A stretch of DNA of 64,000 nt from contig NZ_CANLWM010000002.1 of the NCBI RefSeq assembly GCF_947494875.1, forward strand, positions 496,001 to 560,000. The letters run 5' to 3'. The notes under the pieces were generated by a model. That model was not told the origin of the DNA and made no database searches. It saw only the letters and a list, made by a program, of their open reading frames with translations. The position numbers were made by a program, and so were the translations under genes. This DNA is from an uncultured Williamsia sp. (lineage in GTDB: Bacteria; Actinomycetota; Actinomycetes; Mycobacteriales; Mycobacteriaceae). Positions 34,901 to 53,892 of this stretch are shown here, piece after piece (position 1 is the first letter of the stretch; every line of letters begins with the position of its first letter).

Positions 34901-37900
34901 CCAACTGCACCCCGGTCAGGTACAGCTCGCCGGAGACCGTCGGTGGGACGGGCCGCAACCGCTCGTCGAGCACGTGGACCCCGGTGTTCGCGACCGGACG
35001 ACCGATCGGGACGGTGTCGGTGTCGGCGGCGGAGTAGGCGTGATAGGTGACGTCGACCGCGGCCTCGGTCGGGCCGTAGAGGTTGTGGATCGCGGCGCCG
35101 GACACCGCGACCATCCGGGCGGCGACGTGCGGCGGGAGCGCCTCGCCGCTGGCGAACACCTGACGCAGGGTCGCCAGCTCGCCCATGGGTCCGTCGTGTC
35201 CCGACTCCGCGTCGAGCGTCGTGGTGAACGCCGACATCATCGACGGCACGAAATGCAGTGTCGTGACACCGGTCTCGGCGACGAGTCGCGCGAGATACGC
35301 GGGGTCCCGATGGCCGTCGGGAGCTGCGATCGCCAGCGTCGCACCGGTCTGCAGCGGCCAGAAGAACTCCCAGACCGACACGTCGAACGTGGCGGGCGTC
35401 TTCTGCATCACGACGTCGGCGCCGTCGATCGGGTACTCCGACTGCATCCACCGGAGTCGGTTCACGATCGCGCGATGGGTGACCGCGACGCCCTTGGGTC
35501 GCCCGGTGGAGCCCGACGTGTAGATCACGTACGCGGTGTTGTCCGGACGCAGCGGGGCGGTGCGATCGTCGTCGGTCAGAGGTTCGCCAGACCGGCCCGC
35601 GACGTCGAGGGTGTCGATGGTGAGCACCGGCGCGGCGTCGTGGGTGAAGCCGTCGCGCGTGGTCGTGAGGACCGCCGCCGGGCGCGCGCTGTCGAGGACG
35701 TAGGCGATGCGCTCGGCGGGGTGATCGAGATCGACCGGGACGTAGGCGCCACCGGCGGCGACGACCGCATACATGCCGACCAGCAGGTCGACGGAACGGC
35801 GCATCGCCAGCGCGACATGGACGTCCGGTCCGACACCGGCCTCGACGAGATGGCGGGCGAGACGGTGCGAGCGCTCGGCGAACTCGGCGTATCCGAGCGT
35901 CTCCCCCTCGAACACCAGTGCCGGGGCGGTCGGCGTGCGGCGGACCTGCTCGACGAACAGGTCGGTCAGGGTGAGCGAGTCCGTCGACGGGGCCTCGCCG
36001 GACTCGGCGATGACCGACGCGAGCATCCCCGAGAACTGTTCGGCGAACGCACCGCCGGCGTCGTCGAGGAGTCCCGGCAACAGCGTCGACAGCGCGATCG
36101 TGACCGCGGCCTCGGGCCCGATCCCGACCGCACCCAGCGTGGCCAGCAGCTCCGTCGACTTCGCCTGCAGCTCACCGTAGGTGACGTCCACGCCGCCGTG
36201 GGACAGGGCGACCCCGCCCGGGTTGATCCGTGCGGCGGTCGCGAGCAACTCGTCGAGCGAGCGGCCTCGCAGCCCGTCCGCGTCGGCGCGGACACCCCGC
36301 GGGTCGGCGTCACCGGTCTGCTCGAGCTGGTCGCGCTCGGCGTCGGTGAGGATGTCGATGTCCCCCAGCGTGACCGAGGGGTCGTCCGCGACGGCGGCGA
36401 GCACCGCGACGAATCGCTCCCCCATCGCGGCGACCGTCTGCTCGTCGAAGATGTCGACGGCGTAGTCGAGCAGCACGTCGATGCCGCGACCGCGACCGTC
36501 GGCGCCGAAGGTCTCGGAGATCGTCATCCCGACATCGGATTTCGCGAACCGCACGCCCCACTCCAGCGGCGTCACGCTGAGACCGGGGAGTTCGACGGTC
36601 GGGATCTCGATGTTCTGCATGGTCAGGTTGACCTGCACGAGCGGCGCGTACTTGCGGGTGCGCACCGGCGCGACCGCCTCGACCACCTGCTCGAGGGGCA
36701 CGTCGGAGTTGTTGAACGCGGCGAGGTCCGCCTCACGGGTACGGGCCAATGCGTCGACGAACGTGTCGGACCCCGAGACGCGGGTCCGCATGACGAGCGT
36801 GTTCACGAACATCCCGACCAGGCCGTCGACCGCGGAGGCGGTGCGCCCTGCGGTCGGCGTCCCGACGGCGAGGTCGTCTGTGCCGGCCAGGCGGGCGAGC
36901 AGCGCCGCGAATGCGGTGTGCACGACCATGAACATCGTCGAGTCGGTGTCGGTGGCGATCCGGTGCAGGCTCTGCTGCAGCGTGGCGTCGATGCGGAAAC
37001 CGACCTCGCCGCCGACCAGGGACCGACGGTCGGTGCGGGGGCGGTCGGTGGGGATCTCCAGCAGGTCCGGCAGACCCGCCAGGTGCTCCCGCCAGAACTG
37101 CAGCTGCCGCCCGGTCACCGAGTCGGGGTCCTCCGGCGACCCCATCACGGTCTGCTGCCAGATCGCGAAGTCCGCGTACTGCACGGACAGCGGGCGGAAG
37201 CGGGGCTCCACGCCCGCCACACGCGCGGTGTAGGCGGTCATGAGGTCCGTCGCCAGCGGCACCAGGGACGATCCGTCGGCGGCGATGTGATGGATGACCA
37301 ACAGCAGCACGTGGTCATTCGGGGCGATCTCGATCAGCAGGGCACGCAACGGCGGGGCGACGGTCACGTCGAACCCGGTGCTCGCCGCCTCCAGACAGAT
37401 CTCGCGCACCCGGTCCTCCGTCGAGGCGGTGTGCCGCTCGAGTGCCACCGACGACGCGTCGACGGTGAGGATCTGCTGGAACGGCCCGTCCACCGAGTCC
37501 GGGTACATCGTCCGCAGGATCTCCTGACGGCCCACGAGGTCGGTCAACGACGCGGTGAGAGCCGCGACGTCGAGTTCTCCGGTGAGCCGCAGGCCGAGAG
37601 GGATGTTGTAGTCGGCGGCGGTCGGGTCCAGACGGTTGAGGAACCACATCCGCTGCTGCGCCAGCGAGAGCGGGATCCGCTCGGGCCGGTCGGTGGCGGT
37701 GAGCGGTGCGACGGCGTCGCCGGCGAGGTCGGGTGAGGCCTCGATCGCGGCGGCGAGATCGGCGACACCGGGCGTCTCGAACAGCATCCGGACCCCGAGG
37801 CGCACACCGAGCGACTCGTTGACACGCGCCATGGCGCGCGTCGCGGCGAGCGAGTTGCCACCGAGGTCGAAGAACGAGTCGTCCGCACCGATCTGTTCAC

Positions 37901-53550: not shown

Positions 53551-53892
53551 TCAGCGGATGCGTTCCGCGGCGGCGACGGCGACGGTCGCCGCTGCCCGCA
53601 GGGATGCCAGCGTAGCGGCCAGGCCGGACGGACCCGACGCGGCGAGCCCGGGCACCGTCATCATCAGGGCGACCGTGAGGGTGGAGTCGTCGATCGTGGA
53701 CGACGACGACATCGAGACCATGGCGGCGCGCGCGGCCGCGGCGATCTGACCGAACGAGAGAACGAGGTCCGGACGCGACACGGCGATCGCGTCGGGCGCC
53801 GTCGCGGCGGCCCGCGTCACGAGATCGCCGAGGGTGCGCGTGGTCGCCGTCTGCACGGGATTCTCGACATCTGTCCGGAGCGTCGTCGCCAC
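53551..53892 (-). CDS. orfA: stand-alone A-domain N-terminus mimic, unknown function
   Basis: A 113-residue protein starting at GTG 53892, which has GGAGGGA directly upstream; an ATG-like start ten codons earlier lacks such a site. From residue 18 it reads [20 protein letters not shown] and [11 protein letters not shown], like the beginning of an NRPS adenylation domain. After [19 protein letters not shown] it ends in an Ala-rich helix rather than continuing the A fold, so it cannot be a catalytic enzyme. It is the first gene of the NRPS locus and is tightly linked to mbtH. It shares its layout with orfB and the two inserts in the NRPS. The function is unknown. Confidence 0.75.

Follow-up and report, generated by a model that had tools for sequence, protein, structure and literature searches.

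Paired domains built from the adenylation-domain N-terminus: a candidate docking-domain class for split C|A modules of nonribosomal peptide synthetases

The DNA analysed was a stretch of 64,000 nucleotides from an uncultured Williamsia sp., hereafter the window, and the features that concern this work are collected in Table 1. Four segments of the window had been singled out in a preliminary description: the free-standing orfA and orfB, and two inserts within the very large synthetase NRPS1, here called ins43 and ins36. The positions of all four were confirmed on the minus strand, the start previously given for orfA being the later of two GTG codons, at 53892. The count of four had to be raised to six after a search of the window's genome and adjoining DNA, one of the further copies ending NRPS2 and the other belonging to the N-terminal part of NRPS3, both just beyond the window. 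The inserts were correctly described as additions, as each is followed by an A domain whose TSGSTG motif lies 280 and 249 residues, respectively, downstream of the copy start. Copies grouping with those at NRPS C-termini are referred to as alpha and those grouping with copies near N-termini as beta, giving a domain order of C3-beta-A3...C5-alpha-A5 in NRPS1.

Ribosomal proteins L2 and L4 (Pfam matches) are encoded between NRPS1 and NRPS2 at window positions 8630–11213 on the minus strand, and the separation of the NRPS genes by this ribosomal-protein cluster makes one simple operon unlikely. ABC transporter genes diverge from orfA at 54182–57302 on the plus strand, assigned from the sequence of the ATPase and from a membrane part with drrB/drrC and DrrB-family matches below the cut-off. 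The mycofactocin genes MftG and MftF were identified at 60333–63130 on the minus strand by NCBIfam matches above the cut-off.

Table 1. Features of the locus. Positions are those of the window unless a contig is named.
Feature	Position	Strand	Remarks
orfA, free-standing copy, 123 aa	53551..53922	(-)	GTG start; alternative GTG at 53892; C-terminal (alpha) grouping
mbtH, flanked by orfA and orfB; 73-aa MbtH-like protein	53313..53534	(-)	Pfam PF03621, E 3.2e-30
orfB, free-standing copy, 143 aa	52652..53083	(-)	N-terminal (beta) grouping
NRPS1, ORF of 11,347 aa, nine A domains	18303..52346	(-)	
ins43, copy between C and A, NRPS1 module 3	about 42870..43145	(-)	closest to certain N-terminal (beta) copies, with weak resolution
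ins36, copy between C and A, NRPS1 module 5	about 35991..36266	(-)	beside C-terminal (alpha) and eight N-terminal copies
NRPS2, N-terminal 1948 aa inside window (full ORF 2720 aa)	1..5844	(-)	
NRPS2 C-terminal copy, after C domain, then stop	G000:C2:493745-494023		just outside window
NRPS3 copy near N-terminus, before first A domain	G000:C2:493377-493643		just outside window

The relationship between the copies was examined using a profile of 93 positions built from seven seeds. Ordinary A domains matched this profile to position 68 at most; the copies matched it nearly throughout. The profile detected orfA, orfB and both inserts in 8/8 genomes of the window's genus, and the two terminal copies in six genus genomes, those whose fetched regions show them. 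A set of 137 members was then divided into six classes (orfA, 16; orfB, 16; ins43, 30; ins36, 30; C-terminal, 21; N-terminal, 24), with one stretch of G024 excluded as an ordinary A domain. Every classified copy fell into a named class, leaving the class 'other' empty. In a leave-one-class-out comparison, members were scored with a profile of the other five classes and with a profile of 241 N-terminal windows of ordinary A domains from the same NRPSs. The other-classes profile gave the higher score for all 137 members, with class-median matches extending to profile positions 86.5–95. This rules out plain A-domain N-termini as the identity of the copies, and agrees with the earlier proposal of a single family, its members resembling one another more than they do those N-termini. 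Judged by these profiles, the segments are one family of approximately 95 residues whose relationship goes beyond shared A-domain ancestry.

The first ~60 residues of the copies are A-domain-like and homologous to PF00501, the AMP-binding/A domain family. One of the four window copies matched PF00501, at 15.9 bits compared to a gathering cut-off of 29.9, as did 7 of 18 members with a best E of 1.2e-4. The A3 motif, TSG[STAM]TG, was absent from the 190 residues after the copy start, this absence also being a rule of selection. PF03621 (MbtH-like) was matched by mbtH and by none of the four window copies. Sequence searches of Pfam, NCBIfam and the PDB for a known family returned either A-domain/acyl-CoA-ligase matches, spanning the first ~60–70 positions among the matches listed, or weak unrelated ones, and a dedicated model for the domain was not found in Pfam or NCBIfam. 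The domain appears to be undescribed, as the preliminary description had supposed, since no account of it was found in these databases or in the open-access literature, a body of text that takes in few subscription papers and preprints. In the accessible main text of a survey of Rhodococcus clusters (PMC5550956) the words 'docking' and 'truncated' do not occur.

Structures were predicted using AlphaFold2, with L141 (Rhodococcus hoagii) omitted from the folds and retained in the distance test described below. The alpha copy was modelled as a helix, two short strands, a helix, a second helix and a long helix, with mostly good local confidence, and beta was nearly identical. In a model of alpha and beta with the A domain attached (pTM 0.64), the first four elements matched the start of the A domain of the same model, and the C-terminal helices occupied the place of A-domain strand 3. 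This predicted change of strand to helix, the length of ~95 residues and the missing A3 motif distinguish the copies from PF00501. A Foldseek search with the alpha-beta-A model gave A domains among the matches listed, while the alpha-beta model gave mostly weak A-domain matches with a best E of 0.46. The copies are best explained as a new family of domains that occur in pairs and derive from the first ~95 residues of an adenylation domain, with the helix-strand-strand-helix arrangement kept and the rest predicted to have become two helices. The preliminary description had the rest of the A domain replaced by a pattern of its own; the two helices of the models support such remodelling, but the sequence is not clearly unrelated, as the remodelled part can be aligned by eye (no statistic) with the A-domain stretch around GVGP..V.LA...LL.G....GGAY.

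The copies were found in three settings: both inserts within NRPS1, the free pair of orfA and orfB, and a split pair distributed over consecutive NRPS genes, in which one NRPS carries a copy behind its last C domain and the next carries one ahead of its first A domain. Both inserts were present in 30/30 NRPS1 regions, which had been chosen for holding at least one, and both orfA and orfB in all 16 of these regions that have any free-standing copy. The free pair occurs in three genera (g1, g11 and g17). A lack of free-standing relatives elsewhere would have counted against the family as first described; they are present in 8/8 genomes of the window's genus and in two further genera. Loci collected with a pair profile, a selection that favours pairs, carried the C-terminal copy in 60/60 cases and an N-terminal copy on the next gene in 54/60. 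A profile of the C-terminal copy alone gave 38 named loci in Rhodococcus, Prescottella, Rhodococcoides, Antrihabitans and Nocardia, overlapping in genomes with the set of 60. Both partners were present in 30 of these loci, the partner was frame-broken in one, and seven, all from Nocardia, contained the C-terminal copy only. At 30/38 and 54/60 loci, matched partners thus lie at the C- and N-termini of consecutive subunits, as looked for in a docking pair.

The terminal copies also occupy regular positions. The C-terminal copies are situated 328–349 residues after the nearest C-domain HHxxxDG-type motif and end 92–117 residues later in 20 of 21 cases, the pattern finding no C motif near the remaining one. 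The 24 N-terminal copies lie 244–260 residues before the A3 motif, in a class that was defined by an A3 motif within 420 residues downstream. A natural fusion of alpha to beta was not seen among the matches listed, where at least 18 span both domains and each of these contains at least one internal stop. The occurrence of the copies in pairs, marking both sides of C|A subunit splits, is the strongest clue to function; it is absent from the preliminary description, half of the arrangement being located beyond the window.

A tree of the 137 members was calculated from an alignment of 101 columns, and many of its forks are unresolved. Within it orfA joined ten C-terminal copies (98/89) and orfB joined eleven N-terminal copies (85/92, which does not reach the starred level), with orfA, orfB and ins36 each confined to one side of a branch. 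The ins36 class grouped with eleven C-terminal copies and also with eight N-terminal ones (83/94), and ins43 lay near five other N-terminal copies with no firm support. Because eight N-terminal copies branch with ins36 and the C-terminal copies, the alpha/beta division is not clean across the tree. The separation into alpha and beta kinds appears fairly clear on the side of orfA and orfB, and is only suggested for the remaining copies.

Full-length matches were confined to the window's own taxonomic family (f1) in searches of about 300 genomes each (E ≤ 1e-9), in which f1 was compared with other families and 17 candidates were scored per genome. Outside f1 none of the matches listed reached beyond position 67 of the profile, which is what ordinary A domains would give, and the copies were rejected as a widespread actinobacterial domain. 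Within f1 the split-pair profile (E ≤ 1e-16) was matched in 143/401 genomes and 13/31 genera, a tally that misses distant pairs, including that of the window's own genome, and includes some single copies. A second tally of 173/251 genomes at E ≤ 1e-8 overcounts because ordinary A domains reach that level. The picture from these searches is of a real, lineage-restricted family.

The selection acting on the copies was estimated from 28 pairs of genus genomes. For ins36 the median identity was 83% and the median omega 0.195, compared to 73.5% and 0.314 for the flanking C domain and 72% and 0.336 for the flanking A domain; for the linker preceding the copy the values were 51% and 0.69. By these estimates ins36 is under purifying selection stronger than that on its flanking domains. 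The median omega of orfB was 0.165 and that of orfA 0.44 over the same pairs, and values of 0.63 for ins43 across the genus and 0.54 and 0.60 for C-terminal and N-terminal copies (15 pairs) were obtained. The selected function claimed in the preliminary description is consequently borne out for ins36 and orfB, for which decayed A-domain duplications are excluded by their omega; the range of 0.54–0.63 for ins43 and the terminal copies decides nothing, and for ins43 the value is not low partly because of recombination. In 4/7 sister genomes (G002, G003, G004 and G007) an exchange has affected NRPS1 from late C3 to A3, the exchanged A3 domains having an identity to G000 of 33–36% compared to 43–82% for the A domains of other modules, and a copy is still present in all four. 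The exchange region of module 3 corresponds to about 41.0–44.0 kb of the window within NRPS1.

Because of their position and pairing the copies were filed as a candidate docking-domain class. We consider it probable that they form a previously undescribed class of docking domain serving NRPS modules divided between C and A, with the partners predicted to bind each other. The alpha copy with which one NRPS ends, behind its C domain, would bind the beta copy located at the start of the following NRPS, ahead of its A domain, and the two would hold the split module together. The copies before A3 and A5 of NRPS1 may engage one another, or orfA/orfB, through these same surfaces, and the orfA-mbtH-orfB cassette may supply a free pair together with MbtH. 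The NRPS1 inserts require an added assumption, namely that they pair with each other, pair with orfA/orfB, or act alone. Against docking, two copies lie inside an unsplit NRPS where docking is needless, inserts occur without a nearby free pair in 13 NRPS1 regions, alpha occurs without beta in 7/38 and 6/60 loci, and a single free copy is found in G078. If C|A docking is correct, a module could be cut mid-way and rejoined, close to the sites used for A-domain exchange in engineering, the N-terminus of a catalytic domain would have been converted into a connector, and small unannotated ORFs beside mbtH would gain a role in at least three genera.

The classes of NRPS docking domain treated in the available part of a review of megasynthase docking domains (PMC9113145) are COM, PAX and beta-hairpin/SLiM, acting at E/C, PCP/C and PCP/Cy junctions, and a C|A class is not among them. 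As in all three, the copies are pairs without catalytic function, placed at the end of one NRPS chain and the start of the next. They are distinct from COM, which acts at an E/C junction through a helix on the C-domain hand, in that they lie at a C|A junction and have a predicted fold of their own, and they differ in junction and secondary structure from PAX, a three-helix bundle at PCP/C. The beta-hairpin/SLiM class combines a short disordered C-terminal motif with an N-terminal beta-hairpin domain at PCP/C or PCP/Cy, whereas both partners here are ~95-residue homologues of each other, predicted to be folded, at C|A (PMC9113145, same part). The PCP-like adaptor domain of TomB, from the tomaymycin NRPS, as described in the accessible portion of PMC11186497, is likewise a pseudo-copy of a domain from the catalytic line that now serves in recognition between chains. 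Unlike the copies it is PCP-like and not A-derived, is found ahead of a C domain, serves to recruit a carrier protein and is without a homologous partner of its own kind. The fungal siderophore NRPSs SidD/Nps6 contain an inactive, truncated A-domain fragment (dA) between NRPS domains which, according to the part of PMC10192304 available, is without about 290 N-terminal residues and lies in a module that has no functional A domain. The copies are the opposite, keeping the N-terminus only, with an A domain following or sitting on the next chain.

Coevolution of the partners was assessed by a mirror-tree comparison in which distances were capped, pairs with at least 90% identity in each of the two domains were merged and pairs whose C or A portion was short were dropped; 68 pairs were reduced to 47 in the first run and the later sample held 70. 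Over all 70 pairs the alpha-beta distance correlation beyond that of C and A was 0.272 (0/300 permutations at or above). For the commonest type (46 pairs) the partial r was -0.107 (289/300), and for the rest (24 pairs) it was 0.351 (0/300). The first run gave -0.035 (31 pairs, 325/500) and 0.268 (16 pairs, 10/500), respectively. The coevolution signal is mixed, and its absence from the commonest type counts against direct pairing of alpha with beta.

The strongest partial distance correlations were those of alpha with its own C domain and beta with its own A domain, although these partners also share a gene. This is consistent with a reading in which the copies act locally as spacers or platforms, each setting the spatial relation of C and A in the module to which it belongs and pairing with no other copy, a reading to which two copies within intact modules and the greater conservation of ins36 relative to its neighbours also lend weight. 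A co-fold of alpha and beta, modelled as a read-through of the adjacent copies, points the same way: from seven paired rows it gave a mean pLDDT of 78.9, a fair local confidence, and a pTM of 0.45, which provides no confident placement of alpha relative to beta. The free-standing copies, however, have neither a C nor an A domain, the terminal copies are without one of the two neighbours, and copies occur in twos in the settings examined, except at the alpha-only loci and in G078. A purely local role of this kind is judged rather unlikely.

The arrangement C3-beta-A3...C5-alpha-A5 would fit a fusion of three subunits that lost one partner at each joint, leaving the NRPS1 inserts as relics of docking ends while only the terminal copies work. 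This relic reading is improbable: ins36 is conserved above its catalytic neighbours in both identity and omega, neither insert is missing from any of the 30 NRPS1 regions examined, and a copy is still present after exchange of the C-A3 stretch. In NRPS1, two modules are enclosed between the beta before A3 and the alpha before A5, a block whose ends are those of a free-standing subunit. Should alpha and beta pair, NRPS1 might be re-routed, with C5 joined to A3 so that modules 3-4 are repeated, or with the block bypassed, and orfA/orfB might cap both sites. This is speculative and we give it little credence; if true, it would constitute a switchable, domain-encoded loop in an NRPS.

The association with mbtH was examined in the NRPS1 regions, mbtH being detected by sequence pattern. 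It lies between orfA and orfB in 16/16 regions with the free pair, and in 13 informative regions without that mbtH no free pair was found in the 2.7–3.4 kb fetched upstream. One further region, G024, stops short of the NRPS1 start and is uninformative for the free pair for that reason. A diverged seventeenth cassette of the orfA-mbtH-orfB type precedes an NRPS1-like start in G120, and in G078 (L173, minus strand, about 4.77–5.63 kb) mbtH is followed by a lone copy of 128 aa, with no NRPS seen alongside. As the inserts occur without an adjacent mbtH, MbtH is not their general neighbour. The preliminary description had suggested a partner for C-A interfaces or for MbtH; the tie to C-A junctions is apparent, and the link to MbtH is one of genomic association only. 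That the family works with MbtH, the free pair helping it to load or stabilise the A domains of NRPS1, is the least probable reading, fitting the 16 linked regions, the absence of the pair where mbtH is absent and the arrangements in G120 and G078, but opposed by the inserts of the 13 regions without mbtH directly upstream and by the contact of MbtH on A domains, which lies outside the N-terminal stretch retained in the copies.

A separate layout was observed in the Nocardia loci L159, L161 and L168, at about 10.0–13.5 kb. The gene after the alpha-ended NRPS codes for a pair of A-like domains, in neither of which the usual A3 motif was seen, has no beta copy, and apparently specifies an inactive partner protein. 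The layout is similar in L236, L237, L239, L242, L243 and L244.
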